Of a DNA stretch of 43,819 bases, positions 38,925 through 43,819 are shown piece after piece; the first letter of the stretch is position 1; every line of letters starts with the position of its first letter. A program made the position numbers and the translations under genes. The stretch comes from Alphaproteobacteria bacterium. Lineage in GTDB: Bacteria; Pseudomonadota; Alphaproteobacteria; UBA6615. The stretch spans positions 1 through 43,819 of the forward strand of contig JBDXCV010000015.1 in assembly GCA_039980135.1 (NCBI GenBank), written 5' to 3'. Under the pieces are notes generated by a model, which did not search any database, had not been told where the DNA came from, and saw only the letters and a program-made list of their open reading frames with translations.

Positions 38925-39443
38925 CTGGCCGCAGCGTGGCTTTGTGGTTCGCCTCGAGTCAACGCGTCAGCGCAATATTGCACATGCGTACGTGCTCTTC
39001 GCACCTGCATGGCTACCCCCTTGCCTACGCCTGATATTCGGCTCAAGCTTTCTTCGACCGCACCTCTGGCGAGGTGCGGTCGGCGAGACCCACAACAGGG
39101 AGGTGCATATCTGTATGGATCCACCCAATAGTTTACGGATGGTCCCGTCAATGTGCGGGGCCACGGCGTAGATGCCGCCTATGACAACGGCCCGGGTATT
39201 TACGTCGATATGAAATGACATCGCTAGAGTATGAACAAACGCGGGTGCGTCGGAATTGGCCGTTCCGGTGGCCCATACAGAGCCCGACATTCTTGTTGGG
39301 CCGCGACGAAAATGTCGACCGAACCCCGCCTGCTCCGCATGGCGGGGTTCTTCATGGAGGCTCCGTGTGACGAGGCGGTGGTTTCGGAACCGGCGGAGAC
39401 GGTGGTATACAGCCTGTTCTTGACTTCGGAGGAGGATCCAAAA
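38925..39443. promoter_or_regulatory. 519-base intergenic region with three inverted repeats
   Basis: No convincing gene. GACCGCACCT (39056-39065) and AGGTGCGGTC (39072-39081) make a perfect 10-bp palindrome with a 6-base centre, with no U-run on either strand; it could be an operator or RNA hairpin. Closer to the metallo-hydrolase gene come GCCCGAC/GTTGGGC (39282-39301) and a second perfect 10-bp stem GAACCCCGCC/GGCGGGGTTC (39321-39330/39341-39350) followed by TTC. These last two could form a structured leader or weak attenuator about 95 bases before the GTG start. A 22-codon frame after GGGAGG near 39100 was seen but is not supported further. Confidence 0.5.
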
Positions 39444-40325
39444 GTGGTTGCCAACAAGCCCAAAATGACGCGCCCGACCGTCTATCAGTTCAAGCTCGGT
39501 GAGTTCACGATTACGAATATCCTGGAGGGATTTCTCCACCGGGACGACATGCACCCCGTCACGGCGACGAACGGAACGGCGGCGGAAGTCGAGGCCATCG
39601 CGAAGGCACACAAGCTGCCATTCCCGCAGATGGAGCATCAGTTCATTCCGACCCTCGTGGACACGGGCGACAAGCTGATCGCGTTTGACCCGGGTTTTGG
39701 CGACAAGAACCCTTCACAGGGCCACTATAACGGTCGCCTCGCCGATGCCGGCTACGATCTGAACGACGTGGATTATGTGGTGGTTACCCACTGCCACCCG
39801 GATCACATTGGCAATCTGACCGCCGGCGGCAATCCGACATTCCCCAACGCCGAGATCGTGTTCGGCGAAGCGGAGTTCGCTTTCTGGAAGAAGGGCGAGA
39901 ACATTCCCGCCCATCGTCCGCCGACCCTCGAGATGTTCAACAATGTCTGTCTGCCGTTCGAGGACCAGGCGCGTTATGTGAACCCGGGCGACGATATCGT
40001 CAGCGGTGTCACCGCGGTCGATGCCTTCGGCCATTCGGCAGGACACATGGCCTATCATATCGAGAGCAACGGCCAGCAACTGATGATCATGTCCGACACC
40101 GTGGCGCATTTCGCGATCTCTCCGGCAAATCCGGAATGGCATTTCGGCATGGATGATGACCCGGTAAAGGCGGTCGAATCGCGCAAGCGCGTTCTCGCGA
40201 CGGTCGCCGACGACGAGATGCTGGCGATCGGTTTCCACATGCCGTTCCCGTCGGTCGGCTACATGGAGCGCCATGGCGACGGTTATGTCTGGGTCCCGCA
40301 CAGCTACCAGATGAATCTCGCCTAA
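39444..40325 (+). CDS. Metallo-beta-lactamase-fold hydrolase
   Basis: 293 residues with the zinc-binding signature H116-x-H118-x-D120-H121 (THCHPDHIGN), then His201 in FGHSAGH and Asp218 in SDTVAHF; these form a binuclear metal site. The fold covers lactonases, arylsulfatases and many unknown hydrolases; the layout resembles the quorum-quenching-lactonase-like group, but the substrate is not clear. GTG 39444 was chosen for a GGAGGA site (39431-39436) 7 bases upstream. The open frame extends 71 codons further upstream, through two hairpins, and that extension has no coding look. It is a single-gene unit, ended by a hairpin facing the enolase-type gene. Confidence 0.92.
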   Translation: MVANKPKMTRPTVYQFKLGEFTITNILEGFLHRDDMHPVTATNGTAAEVEAIAKAHKLPFPQMEHQFIPTLVDTGDKLIAFDPGFGDKNPSQGHYNGRLADAGYDLNDVDYVVVTHCHPDHIGNLTAGGNPTFPNAEIVFGEAEFAFWKKGENIPAHRPPTLEMFNNVCLPFEDQARYVNPGDDIVSGVTAVDAFGHSAGHMAYHIESNGQQLMIMSDTVAHFAISPANPEWHFGMDDDPVKAVESRKRVLATVADDEMLAIGFHMPFPSVGYMERHGDGYVWVPHSYQMNLA

Positions 40326-40336
40326 GCCGGTTCCTG

Positions 40337-40370
40337 CCGCCCGCCGGTCATCAACCGATCGAGCGGGCGG
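40337..40370. terminator. Stem-loop between convergent genes
   Basis: CCGCCCGC (40337-40344) pairs with GCGGGCGG (40363-40370), enclosing a second stem CGGT-CATCA-ACCG (40345-40357). It lies 11 bases after the metallo-hydrolase stop and 30 bases from the convergent enolase-type stop. Neither side has a long U-run, so it may act as a weak bidirectional terminator or as a 3'-end stabiliser. Confidence 0.55.
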
Positions 40371-40400
40371 TAACCCCGTCTATCGACGTGCCGGGCTGGG

Positions 40401-41471
40401 TCAGACGCGCGCCTTGCGCGCTGCCGCAGTCAGCGCGAGCCCATGACCGGCGATGTTGCGCGCCGACATCACGCCGTCGGCGGTCATCTCCGGCCAACCC
40501 TCGAACGCCTCCTTGAGCAGCGGAAAATCCTCGATCCAGAGACCGGACGTTGCGATGCCCGCGAAATGAACGAAAAGGCCCGGCAGGAAGTGCGGCGCCA
40601 CGACCGTCCCGAATGCCACGGCGCTGCGCGCCACGGCGAGACAGGGGGTCAGGCCGCCGGCCATGGCGAGATCTGGCTGAATGGTCGCGACGCTGCGATC
40701 GGCCATCAACATGTTGAAGCGATCGAGACCCTGAAGATGCTCGCCCGCGGCGATGGCAACCGGCGTGGTGTCGGCGAGGGTCCGATAGCCGAGCAGGTCG
40801 CGGGCCGGAAGAGGCTCTTCGACGAACAGCATGCCGCTGTCCGCTGCAGCGGCGAGCAGGCGTGTGGCCCGCATGAGGTCACCTTTCTCGTTGGCGTCGA
40901 CCATCACCGAAATGTCGTCGCCGACGGCGGCGCGAACGGCGTGCATGACAGCCGCATCCGCTGGCTGCGCGTTGACCCTTGGTTTCACGCCCTGAAAACC
41001 GGTTTCTCGGTGTGCCATGGCTATTTCCGCCGCTTCTTGCGGGTCCATGGCCGGGGAAAAGCCGCCGCTGCCGTAGACGGGCACCGGTCCGCCGTTGCCG
41101 CCCATTGCCGCCGACAATGCGACGTCGGCCCGTTTTGCGTGCAGATCCCAGAGACCGACATCGAGTGCGGCGAGCGCGATCAGGTTGGGGCCGCCGCCCG
41201 TCCGGTTGAAACTCGCTTCAATGGTTCGCCAGTGGGCCTCCGGGTGTTCAAGCGACGAACCGGTGAGGAAACGTTCGGCCAGTTGACCGGCAATCGTGGC
41301 CGGAATCGCGCCGCCGCCGCCGATGACATAACTGAAGCCAAGCCCCGTCGCGCCGTCCGCATCGCGGATATCGGCGACGATAATATCTACCTGACGCACA
41401 CCCGAGCCGCCGCGCGGCGCGTCAAACTTGATCTCGAGGAGCGAGATATCGATGTCGGAAATTCTGGTCAT
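40401..41471 (-). CDS. Enolase-superfamily enzyme (mandelate racemase/muconate lactonizing type)
   Basis: 356 residues with the N-terminal capping domain and the (beta/alpha)7 barrel of the enolase superfamily. Metal ligands are Asp192 (VMVDANEKG), Glu218 (FVEEPLP) and Glu244 (AAGEHLQG). Candidate bases are Lys163 in GVKPRVN, where the usual KxK is K-P-R, and the His294/Asp267 pair (APHFLPG, IQPDLAMAGG). This looks like the mandelate racemase subgroup, whose members dehydrate sugar acids or racemise 2-hydroxy acids. ATG 41471 is used; GTG 41480 is also in frame, and neither has a good ribosome site. It diverges from the Rieske unit. Confidence 0.92.
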   Translation of the reverse strand: MTRISDIDISLLEIKFDAPRGGSGVRQVDIIVADIRDADGATGLGFSYVIGGGGAIPATIAGQLAERFLTGSSLEHPEAHWRTIEASFNRTGGGPNLIALAALDVGLWDLHAKRADVALSAAMGGNGGPVPVYGSGGFSPAMDPQEAAEIAMAHRETGFQGVKPRVNAQPADAAVMHAVRAAVGDDISVMVDANEKGDLMRATRLLAAAADSGMLFVEEPLPARDLLGYRTLADTTPVAIAAGEHLQGLDRFNMLMADRSVATIQPDLAMAGGLTPCLAVARSAVAFGTVVAPHFLPGLFVHFAGIATSGLWIEDFPLLKEAFEGWPEMTADGVMSARNIAGHGLALTAAARKARV

Positions 41472-41490
41472 GGGTGGCACGCGCGATAGT

Positions 41491-41572
41491 TTGAGTTGCT
41501 CAACGATAGCTAGCGGGCGGCCGACAGGCCACCATTGACCCGCTGATGGACCATCGGTTGCGTCGCCGATGG
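41491..41572. promoter_or_regulatory. Two inverted repeats in the enolase-type / Rieske divergent region
   Basis: A 13-bp palindrome TTGAGTTGCTCAA lies at 41491-41503, 20 bases from the enolase-type start, where it would overlap that promoter. A second repeat, CCATCGG (41551-41557) and CCGATGG (41566-41572) with 8 bases between, is followed by AAATTTTCC. Either could bind a regulator controlling both directions. No gene is evident between 41472 and 41664. Confidence 0.4.
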
Positions 41573-41664
41573 AAATTTTCCTTTGGTGGATATTGCCGGG
41601 TACGGCGGCACAGATGTAGCGTCGGGTCGTATTCGTCTTGTCCGTTGTTGATTGGGGAGATCAC

Positions 41665-42030
41665 GTGTCGGAACTGTTGGTAGCGAAAGTCGATGATCTG
41701 GCCGATCGCGAGCGGCGGATCGTCGTGGAGGGGCCGCTGGAGATCGGTGTTTTTCGATTGGGCGATGAGTTTTTTGCGTGGGAGAGCAATTGCCCCCACG
41801 CCGGCGGGCCGGTCTGTCAGGGACGCATCATGAACCGGGTCAACGAGGTGCTCGACGACGAAAAACGGGCACATGGCTATGAATTCGTCGATGCGGATGT
41901 CCATATCATCTGTCCGTGGCATGGCTACGAGTTCAATATCCGCACCGGTGCCCATCCGGGAGATCGCGACACGCGCCTGCGCGGGTTCCCGGTTACGGTT
42001 CGCGATGGAGCGGTCTATGTCACCATCTGA
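41665..42030 (+). CDS. Rieske-type [2Fe-2S] protein with long inter-motif insertion
   Basis: 121 residues, a stand-alone Rieske domain like the ferredoxins of ring-hydroxylating oxygenases. The two halves of the cluster site are C43-x-H45 (NCPHAGG) and C83-x2-H86 (CPWHGYEF). In ordinary Rieske ferredoxins about 15-20 residues separate them; here there are 37, including an extra segment around NRVNEVLDDEKRAHGYEF. The rest (WESNCPHAGGPV, and GFPVTVRDGAVYV at the end) is standard. GTG 41665 has GGGGAG (41654-41659) 5 bases upstream. It overlaps the next gene by 14 bases and is the first of a three-gene unit with an amidohydrolase. Confidence 0.92.
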   Translation: MSELLVAKVDDLADRERRIVVEGPLEIGVFRLGDEFFAWESNCPHAGGPVCQGRIMNRVNEVLDDEKRAHGYEFVDADVHIICPWHGYEFNIRTGAHPGDRDTRLRGFPVTVRDGAVYVTI

Positions 42031-42343
42031 AGCCGATTTTTCGTCTCTGGCGGCGGTGGCCACACGCGAGGGAGACCGCCGATTGGTTGCCGGCAAGACT
42101 GCGGATATCCCGGATGAAAGCGTGCAGCAGCTTCTGACCGTCGCCACGCGACTCTATGCCCGTAAAACGGATGAGGAGGCGCGCAGTTTTTCGCCGCTCG
42201 CGGACGGCAGTGTTTTGACGGCCACGGATGTGGCCGTGACGGTGACGGCGCTGATGCGCGCCGCCGATCTGAATCTTTTTGACCTGGCAATGTGGGCCGG
42301 GCGGGCGAAGCCTGCCGGGGAGGGCAATGATGACAACGGATGA
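42017..42343 (+). CDS. Hypothetical 108-residue protein in the Rieske-amidohydrolase unit
   Basis: 108 residues, no membrane segment or cysteine cluster; I do not recognise the family. The N-terminal half is charged and helical (SLAAVATREGDRRL and QLLTVATRLYARK), and a second block TATDVAVTVTALMRAADLNLF (split for reading) is amphipathic, suggesting a small helical subunit. The start ATG 42017 overlaps the Rieske stop and its own stop overlaps the amidohydrolase start, so all three are coupled. It may be an accessory subunit or a docking partner of either enzyme. The longer in-frame reading upstream lies within the Rieske gene. Confidence 0.82.
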   Translation: MSPSEADFSSLAAVATREGDRRLVAGKTADIPDESVQQLLTVATRLYARKTDEEARSFSPLADGSVLTATDVAVTVTALMRAADLNLFDLAMWAGRAKPAGEGNDDNG

Positions 42344-43556
42344 CGGTTTCAAGCGGACCTATCCGCAGGTCGATGACTGGACGGACAGCCGGGAGCTTCT
42401 CGCCAACGCGCGCAAGCAGGCTGAGGAACGCCAGCTGGACGATGTATTCATCGTCGATATCGATTCCCATATCAGCGACGGCGGCAACTGGCCCGAGATC
42501 ATGGATTATGTCGAGGATCCGGTGATCCGCGAGGCTGCCTCGGCTTTCGGGGACGGCAGCAAGCGCGGCGCATTCCTCAACGGTACCGATGGCCTCCAAT
42601 GGCAGAATGTTTGGGGCCGTATTCCCCATGGCCAGGGTCTGAAGGAAGCCGTCGAGGAGAGCGATCTTTCTCGCGAGACCATCTTGTCACGACGTTGCAT
42701 GGACCAGATGGGGCTCGACTATCAGGTGATGTTCCCGAACGCGATGCTGTTTCTCGGTATGCATCCCGTGCCGGAAATGGAAGTTCATCTCGCCACCGCC
42801 TACAACCGCTGGCTGGTTGAGCGGGTGTTGCCGGAAGACACGCGGATCAAGGCGATGATGTACCTGCCTTTCAATAATCCGATGGAAGCCGAAAAAACGG
42901 TCAAACGCTTTCTCGGCAAACCCGGCGTCGCTGGGTTCCTCGTGACTTCGTCACGGCACAAGCCGGTGCATGCGAACGAGTATATGCGGCTCTACGGGAT
43001 GCTCGAGGAGGCCGGTCAGGTCCTGGGGTTCCATACCCATCTCAACTGGCAGGACGAGTACACCTCCCAGCTCAACCGCTTCATCTCGATGCACGCAATC
43101 TCGTTCGTGCTGTGCAACCTGGTGCATCTGACGAACTGGGTGATCAACGGGCTGCCGGAGCGTTTCCCGAAATTGAAGGTGATGTGGATCGAAAGTGGCG
43201 TCGCGTGGCTGCCGTTCATCATGCAGCGACTCGATCATGAATACATGATGCGCACATCCGAGGCGCCGTTGCTCACGAAGCTGCCGAGCGAATATATGCG
43301 CGAGATGTTCTACACGACCCAGCCGCTGGAGCGGACGAACGAAACGCTTCTGGCCGCCACGATGGAGGCCATGAGCGCGGAAACCCAGATGCTGTTCGCG
43401 TCCGACTGGCCTCACTGGGACTTCGATCTGCCGGCGACGATATGGGACCTGCCGTTCCTTGACGAAGCGGCCAAGCGCAACATCCTCGGCTACAACGCGG
43501 CGCGGATTTTCGATCTCGAGATTCCCGAAAAATACCGCGCGCTGGCGGCCGAGTAA
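42330..43556 (+). CDS. Amidohydrolase family 2 (ACMSD-like) protein
   Basis: 408 residues with a TIM-barrel amidohydrolase fold of the amidohydrolase-2 group, which includes decarboxylases such as ACMSD and gamma-resorcylate decarboxylase. Metal-site features: DIDSHISD (His47; the usual second member of the pair is not a plain HxH), FHTHLNW (about 229-235) and FASDWPHWDFD, the last carrying the catalytic Asp. IESGVAWLPFIMQRLDH is a family signature. Start ATG 42330 is preferred (GGAGG 6 bases upstream) over ATG 42327. Partner genes encode a Rieske protein and an unknown small protein, so the unit may oxidise and then decarboxylate an aromatic or cyclic compound; that is inference. Confidence 0.92.
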   Translation: MTTDDGFKRTYPQVDDWTDSRELLANARKQAEERQLDDVFIVDIDSHISDGGNWPEIMDYVEDPVIREAASAFGDGSKRGAFLNGTDGLQWQNVWGRIPHGQGLKEAVEESDLSRETILSRRCMDQMGLDYQVMFPNAMLFLGMHPVPEMEVHLATAYNRWLVERVLPEDTRIKAMMYLPFNNPMEAEKTVKRFLGKPGVAGFLVTSSRHKPVHANEYMRLYGMLEEAGQVLGFHTHLNWQDEYTSQLNRFISMHAISFVLCNLVHLTNWVINGLPERFPKLKVMWIESGVAWLPFIMQRLDHEYMMRTSEAPLLTKLPSEYMREMFYTTQPLERTNETLLAATMEAMSAETQMLFASDWPHWDFDLPATIWDLPFLDEAAKRNILGYNAARIFDLEIPEKYRALAAE

Positions 43557-43650
43557 CGTTTTTGCGGTTGGGTTATTTTCCGTTTGCGGGCGACGCGGAA
43601 TCCAATGTTAGGGTTTTACTGTCGTTCAACAATTGAAAGGAGGTGATCCG

Positions 43651-43731
43651 ATGTCGAGTGAGATGATTGGCATGAAGTTCAACCCAACGTGTCGGGTTCG
43701 GACTGCGGAGCAACCTCTCCAGGCCGAATAG
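43651..43731 (+). CDS. 26-residue peptide gene with near-perfect Shine-Dalgarno
   Basis: ATG 43651 to TAG 43729-43731 encodes a 26-residue peptide, MSSEMIGMKFNPTCRVRTAEQ then PLQAE. The upstream AAAGGAGGTGATCC (43637-43650 region) is complementary to 14 bases of the usual 16S 3' end (GGATCACCTCCTTT), which is far beyond an ordinary ribosome site and strongly suggests translation. The peptide has no hydrophobic stretch and one central Cys. A terminator-like hairpin follows about 48 bases later. It could be a leader peptide of a gene beyond the window, a regulatory peptide, or a modified-peptide precursor. I do not recognise it, and nothing else is seen in 43557-43650. Confidence 0.6.
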   Translation: MSSEMIGMKFNPTCRVRTAEQPLQAE

Positions 43732-43778
43732 AGACACCGGTCTTCACAGACCATGGGCTGGCAACATGCCCGCTCACG

Positions 43779-43805
43779 GAGCCGCCCCTAACGGGGCAGC
43801 TCTTT
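43779..43805 (+). terminator. Terminator-like hairpin after the mini-gene
   Basis: GAGCCGCCCC (43779-43788) pairs with GGGGCAGCTC (43793-43802) around TAAC, with a single mismatch, and is followed by TTTCC. The U-tract is short. It either ends the transcript of the 26-codon gene or serves as an attenuator for a gene to the right of the window. Confidence 0.6.
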
Positions 43806-43819
43806 CCGTTGGGGTGCGG

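Follow-up and report, generated by a model that had tools for sequence, protein, structure and literature searches.

CC2171, a small RNA of Caulobacter crescentus, reportedly comes from the Landt 2008 survey. STAB-SD 5′ stabilisers, such as that of Bacillus cryIIIA, protect RNA 5′ ends from RNases. CC2171 is among the families improved by one covarying pair in Rfam 15 (PMC11701678), and it stands in a table of predicted small RNAs of M. huakuii (PMC5596092). In work on the Caulobacter coding architecture, ribosome profiling showed intergenic non-coding RNA regions to be untranslated, and CC2171 is unnamed in the accessible passages of that paper (PMC4117421). The accessible parts of these three papers, and those of PMC10117765 and of reports on a Caulobacter RNA sponge (PMC12559287), on small ORFs (sORFs) in B. 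japonicum (PMC5082802) and on peptides encoded by sRNAs (PMC5521070), describe neither an ORF in CC2171 nor a function for it, and the titles, abstract openings and passages covered by a literature search held nothing on its function or translation.

The DNA analysed here (the window) is one complete contig (C15) of 43,819 bases, and near its right end it carries TTCAACAATTGAAAGGAGGTGATCCG-ATG, a strong Shine-Dalgarno (SD) site in front of a 26-codon ORF. Comparison with related loci indicates that this ORF and its SD site make up the 5′ half of an RNA of about 180 nt, rather than an attenuator or a peptide gene of the ordinary kind, and that the element is a small RNA gene of CC2171 type that stands alone, usually in a single copy, and probably ends at an intrinsic terminator. 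Its parts are as follows.

43591 to 43617, + strand: upstream block CGACGCGGAATCCAATGTTAGGGTTTT, the probable promoter of the element, with a −10-like TAGGGT at 43609–43614.
43627 to 43806, + strand: the whole RNA element, about 180 nt, a divergent relative of Rfam CC2171 (RF01867) that ends in a terminator hairpin.
43635 to 43649, + strand: complement of the 16S tail, GAAAGGAGGTGATCC, matching by its sequence the 16S rRNA 3′ tail GGATCACCTCCTTTC.
43651 to 43731, + strand: ORF of 26 codons, kept open, with the middle of the peptide nearly unconstrained.
43658 to 43662, + strand: 5′ strand of helix P1, GUGAG, within codons 3–4, partner 43773–43777 (fold and pair counts).
43707 to 43718, + strand: hairpin P3, GGAG-CAAC loop-CUCU, in the 3′ end of the ORF, with 10 of 10 pairs changed on both sides in alignment A2.
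43773 to 43777, + strand: 3′ strand of helix P1, CUCAC, adjoining the terminator hairpin (fold and pair counts).
43779 to 43805, + strand: terminator hairpin GAGCCGCCCC-UAAC-GGGGCAGCUC with a short U tail (from sequence; pairing in alignment A3).

The upstream block is recognisable, with some changes, in 10 aligned family loci despite a differing upstream gene, and among 148 elements TT is over-represented at −65/−64 and T at −37 relative to the start codon. A sigma-70 consensus scan returned nothing at the block. The block is probably the element's own promoter, from which the element is probably transcribed in this organism. The hairpin at 43779–43805, which the first-pass annotation had pointed out, is real and forms the element's own terminator-like end; it was absent from the output of a strict terminator scan.

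The relationship to CC2171 was established by comparison in several steps. RF01867 aligns with the window at 43627–43803 (model positions 1–159 of 159, 31.2 bits, E 5.8e-5 with 420 bases scanned), a score below its curated gathering threshold of 75; the alignment spans the full model, but a large middle part is unaligned or inserted. Such matches to the element come from Rfam's permissive search, below the curated cutoff. All seven loci tried from those collected with a DNA pattern covering the SD and the first codons match RF01867 (24–46 bits, E 1.4e-6 to 0.33). So do 17 loci of a second set of 20 at E ≤0.5, five of them above gathering, and eight of a third set of 10, none of them above gathering. 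The model R1, whose 47 building rows include the window sequence, scores 120 bits at 43627–43806. R1 also finds L222, L223, L225, L229 and L244, all five of which are above the RF01867 gathering threshold, so that the window element is linked to the curated family through intermediates. Furthermore, the 5′ module, the closing helix and the terminator of RF01867 are all present in the element. What joins the subtypes is for the most part the 5′ module and the overall layout. The comparison suggests that the CC2171 family is wider than its curated threshold admits.

The DNA pattern occurs at 113 loci in named genomes, which include Rhizobium, Agrobacterium, Pelagibacterium, Rhodospirillaceae, gammaproteobacterial and other MAGs, and one labelled Deltaproteobacteria. 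An ORF of 18–37 codons is present at 112 of the 113 (23–26 codons at 103), and the remaining one, L109, runs off its contig; the MSSE start of these peptides is imposed by the pattern, and their middles vary. At E 0.001, R1 has matches in 106 of 385 alphaproteobacterial genomes; in 86 the match spans 140 nt or more, and in the other 20 it is confined to short stretches. At E 0.01 it matches 21 of the 24 genomes of the window's order, short matches included. Some short matches are the 5′ module with another body and others only the terminator end of the model. Two weak short ones (G016:C10 and G017:C3) turned out to be the antisense strand of a 16S end, and matches below 140 nt were therefore left out of the full-element count. 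The pattern AAGGAGGTGRTCNNDTGTC was found in 93 of the 385 class genomes, in two copies in one, and also in a phylum sample that partly overlaps the class, where 57 of 299 genomes have it and six of these lie outside the class. Its reversed control gave 0 in every genome row listed for the class and the phylum sample, and together these counts imply that the 5′ module is typically single-copy. On this evidence the element is one that occurs in many alphaproteobacteria and some other proteobacteria.

Within the window's family, the aligned DNA is well conserved in the SD, the first codons, the upstream block and the terminator, and several members carry the module with another body that begins MSN..V. 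In six genomes of one genus (g273; L323–L328) the ORF after the module has 14 codons and encodes a conserved peptide, VSxxKRCHLAGIAR, and the body that follows is conserved too but of another kind; L323 and L326, which were scanned, match RF01867 at 42–45 bits. In two lineages, at L267 (745–912, − strand) and L270 (871–1041, + strand), the 5′ module starts ORFs of 55–56 codons with a hairpin after them. Their products look exported, with a signal-peptide-like stretch and a Cys after the signal region, and both loci match RF01867 below cutoff; a Pfam search with the two 55–56-residue variants gave one sub-threshold match and nothing convincing. The 14-codon, 55–56-codon and MSN..V variants may be exaptations or subfamilies.

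The SD site itself stands out in the window. The 14-mer AAAGGAGGTGATCC lies at 43636–43649, followed by G43650 and the ATG at 43651, and G43635 extends it to a 15-mer complementary to the tail GGATCACCTCCTTTC. The perfect 14-base site of the first-pass annotation is real, with its coordinates shifted by one base (it had been started at 43637), and it is adjacent to the ATG with one G in between rather than directly before it. The tail was read in three of 24 genomes of the order; the same search found no 16S end in the other 21, the element's own assembly included. Pairing of the site with the 14-nt tail GGAUCACCUCCUUU is predicted at −26.0 kcal/mol, twice the best value among 26 mechanically called window ORFs of at least 150 aa (best −12.9, median −7.5 kcal/mol). 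In the 3.76-Mb assembly, the 14-mer with up to two mismatches has 17 matches, of which one is exact (the window site), none has one mismatch and 16 have two, and a reversed control pattern has 14, so that the two-mismatch copies are at chance level. An antisense 16S artefact was excluded by the absence of any rRNA match at the site.

The SD is also a fixed part of the family. GGAGG is present in 85 of 85 full-length R1 matches, and GGAGGTG is invariant in A2, partly because the selecting pattern requires it. An accessibility of the SD bases clearly above shuffles was not found with either control: they are unpaired at 0.31 compared with 0.29 in body-shuffled controls, and paired at 0.644 compared with 0.743 when only the 3′ segment is shuffled. 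These properties bear on an alternative in which the RNA would hold 30S through the full-tail complement independently of translation, the ORF being incidental, either titrating 30S or shielding its own 5′ end from RNases as STAB-SD elements do. The GGAGG in all 85 full-length matches, the −26.0 kcal/mol pairing and the position of the site near the inferred RNA 5′ end would all fit such a decoy. A decoy, however, needs neither a start codon nor an open frame, and we consider it unlikely given what follows.

In order not to presuppose an ORF, we used R1 matches for a test of the reading frame. They came from 89 sources (two of 30 loci and one of 60 fetched regions were dropped, and two loci were added), and most R1 matches shorter than 60 nt were never fetched for this test. 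Of 94 matches aligned, 85 were at least 140 nt long, and 76 were left after removal of those at least 80% identical. All 76 have a start codon (ATG in 42, GTG in 28, TTG in 6); counted from the first G of GGAGG, it lies at 12 nt in 73 of them and at 11 nt in three. Codons 6–18 are free of stops in every one, compared with 47.4 ± 3.9 (maximum 59) after shuffling; the same stretch is stop-free in frame +1 in 36 of 76 and in frame +2 in 54 of 76. The ORFs have 18–35 codons apart from a single one of 55, and at least 48 nt separate each stop from the RNA 3′ end. In the pattern-selected set, the first stop falls at codons 23–26 in 68 of 76, and in the other frames in 1 of 75 and 0 of 76. Furthermore, the P3 motif is in frame with the ATG in 38 of the 45 elements that bear it (31 more are without it). 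A decoy thus has against it an NTG without an early stop in 76 of 76 and a P3 motif held in frame. Indeed, strong ribosome recruitment and translation, which the first-pass annotation had proposed, are both backed by the comparison, in which SD, NTG start and open ORF are kept in all 76.

The peptide shows a different pattern of change. The ORF, translated as MSSEMIGMKFNPTCRVRTAEQPLQAE and ending in TAG at 43729–43731, is present at ATG 43651 as first annotated, and two relatives of the window's genus (L006 and L007, and also L051 and L104) have a TAG at codon 24 and hence a 23-codon ORF. Among 49 independent close pairs, a set selected for ORFs of 17–37 codons, changes at the three codon positions number 78/80/79 in codons 6–18 (N/S 0.84), 4/1/8 in codons 1–5 (N/S 0.39) and 52/49/56 in codons 19–26 (N/S 0.52). 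In 15 pairs from the window's genus that were read for both genes, the neighbouring amidohydrolase has 336/118/2057 changes, 82% of them at the third position, versus 19/24/30 in the sORF. An open frame with equal change at the three codon positions means that the frame is kept and that the amino acids in the middle hardly matter. The lower N/S at the two ends can be ascribed to P1 and P3, or could also reflect weak selection on the peptide.

Could the element nevertheless be a small-peptide gene whose product of 18–35 aa evolves fast into lineage-specific sequences? Start, frame and length are conserved, peptides are recognisable within a genus, N/S is 0.39 and 0.52 at the ORF ends, and there are the conserved 14-aa peptide of one genus and the exported-looking ORFs of 55–56 codons elsewhere, all of which such a gene would explain. 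We nevertheless regard it as quite unlikely, given the equal change of codon positions in codons 6–18 next to a gene with 82% third-position changes, the lack of a Pfam or NCBIfam match to the peptide, and the coincidence of the N-terminal conservation with helix P1 and of 'EQP' with hairpin P3. Of the 24 genomes of the order, 10 have the peptide, and these belong to a single family. A profile search of 385 class genomes matched eight, three from the window's family and five that appeared chance-like on inspection, and gave no convincing peptide outside that family; a DNA similarity search of plasmids with the element gave no match. CRVR, singled out in the first-pass annotation, is in the sequence and is no conserved feature, the Cys being already lost within the same family. 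With codons 6–18 near-neutral and this Cys lost, a working peptide or a modified-peptide (RiPP) precursor is unlikely, and the peptide would be a by-product. RiPP maturation genes are not among the neighbours scanned (amidohydrolase, alpha/beta hydrolase, reductive-dehalogenase-like, SMP-30, PurU and Rieske). The first-pass annotation had suggested searching the peptide and its upstream bases across alphaproteobacteria, and had named as a refutation the case in which only the SD motif is conserved. The outcome is split: SD, frame and length are kept, and the peptide sequence is hardly conserved.

The ORF takes part in a predicted fold with compensatory changes. A2 consists of 47 sequences from 51 non-redundant candidates, four having been dropped, and yielded three helices; it contains 131 cells changed on both sides with pairing kept, versus 51.0 ± 6.8 after shuffling. 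Pairs changed on both sides are 10 of 10 in P3, 7 of 10 in the terminator and 2 of 7 in P1, the low figure for P1 arising from the selecting pattern, which leaves little of its 5′ strand free to vary. In A3, which was selected by and fitted to the model, there are 413 such cells (123.1 ± 10.6 shuffled), all seven P1 pairs are changed on both sides, and the two helices of the terminator show 97% pairing, likewise with changes on both sides. By these counts P3 and the terminator covary strongly, and P1 does so in the wider, model-fitted set. The mean minimum free energy of 148 elements is −70.0, compared with −57.9 in body-shuffled controls, and P1 has a pairing probability above 0.5 in 91 of them (the window's own P1 has 5 bp). 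Codons 6–15 pair with the segment after the stop at a mean of 0.433, and codons 2–5 at 0.394, compared with 0.137 and 0.121 after shuffling of the segment (n = 75). P1 has its 5′ strand at +8 to +14 from the first base of the start codon, a region that the footprint of an initiating ribosome covers; ribosome occupancy and P1 should therefore be mutually exclusive.

An sRNA-like unit with a terminator is also what a dual-function base-pairing sRNA in the style of Spot 42 or rnTrpL would look like, its ORF secondary and its seed pairing with mRNAs, or, in a variant, acting as a sponge for sRNAs that bear CCUCC. In S. meliloti, according to the accessible part of the report, 33% of 54 newly found translated sORFs are on annotated sRNAs (PMC10117765). 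The invariant columns of A2 fall in the SD/start/P1 stretch, apart from a single column in the P1 3′ strand and another in the terminator stem, leaving no evident family-wide seed outside them, and this reading appears unlikely.

The surroundings of the element were compared as well. The contig begins inside 23S rRNA (1–1009), followed by 5S (1201–1315) and tRNA-Met (1424–1500), and it stops 14 bases 3′ of the terminator hairpin. On the other side of the element, at 39231–43556, is a cluster of MBL-fold-like, enolase-like, Rieske and Amidohydro_2 genes (MBL and enolase labelled by eye). In the relatives L013–L017, alpha/beta hydrolase, reductive-dehalogenase-like (TIGR02486), PurU and ABC-transporter-like genes (the last labelled by eye) are read across the element. 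In six of seven loci read from the window's family a convergent alpha/beta hydrolase comes next, and the ORF called next at the seventh, L008, is on the opposite strand too. There is no common gene arrangement around the 113 pattern loci, where neighbours vary and mechanical ORF calls give strand pairs of +− at 40, −− at 24, ++ at 24 and −+ at 11, with an end missing at 14. In Pelagibacterium luteolum (L026, 5129–5280), an FMN riboswitch lies about 80 nt downstream of the element. A leader peptide or attenuator of a downstream operon, which the first-pass annotation had held possible and which an ORF followed by a hairpin would resemble, is scarcely credible with a convergent or opposite-strand gene in seven family loci and mixed strands at the 113.

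Together, these observations lead us to favour a reading in which ribosome loading and translation, and not the peptide, set the fold, stability or activity of the RNA, a proposal that we hold to have an even chance of being right. Since the NTG and the open frame are selected, the peptide is little selected and the ORF is half of a fold, translation itself would be the useful event. The 5′ leader would base-pair along the entire single-stranded 3′ tail of 16S rRNA and so load 30S very strongly, and the short ORF would be translated from the start codon immediately 3′ of the site. The same ORF would form one arm of the fold, with codons 3–5 pairing with the sequence before the terminator (P1), codons 6–15 with what follows the stop codon (P2), and the end of the ORF making hairpin P3. 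Translation and fold would then exclude each other, the stop codon lying 5′ of the P1 3′ strand and the terminator: translated RNA would be open and covered by ribosomes, and untranslated RNA would close into P1/P2/P3. The two states may have consequences for the decay of the RNA or for an activity in trans, and the RNA could thereby report or buffer the capacity for translation initiation. Several observations speak against this reading in its simple form: the score below the RF01867 threshold, SD bases about as accessible as in controls, a P1 pairing probability above 0.5 in only 91 of 148 elements, the conserved 14-codon peptide and the exported-looking products of other lineages, and the untranslated intergenic regions of the Caulobacter profiling study. 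A more specific version, in which the full-tail complement captures 30S, translation of a sequence-indifferent mini-ORF opens the fold and a signal is given in trans as a switch on ribosome availability, is possible and is put forward tentatively. What the comparisons show is the kinship with CC2171, the layout, the open frame, the covariation and the near-neutral middle of the peptide; that the RNA is transcribed here, that it is translated, that it switches and that it has a target are inferences. If the favoured reading is true, the act of translation, and not any peptide, would be the signal in a small RNA that is widespread among proteobacteria. The comparison suggests that the family keeps a frame open behind a full 16S-tail complement with little selection on the amino acids, which is unusual as a mark of selection acting on translation as such. 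The RNA after which the CC2171 family is named belongs to Caulobacter, a laboratory model.

Compared with known systems, the window element shares with the STAB-SD of Bacillus cryIIIA a GAAAGGAGG near the RNA 5′ end that is complementary to the 16S tail, and differs from it in having the site at translation distance from a start codon and a conserved ORF. Like Spot 42 and rnTrpL-peTrpL, as far as the accessible part of the source describes them, it would be a short transcript with a small ORF and an RNA structure, but their peptides are functional, whereas the middle of its peptide is nearly neutral (PMC10117765). With CC2171 it has in common a CAACAA-GAAAGGAGGUGAUCC-NUGUC module, a closing helix in the same place and a terminator. 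P1 differs between them, being GUGAG/CUCAC in the window and CAUUGUC/GACAAUG in Caulobacter-like loci, and whereas CC2171 is typed as an sRNA gene in Rfam, the window element carries a reading frame that has been kept open.
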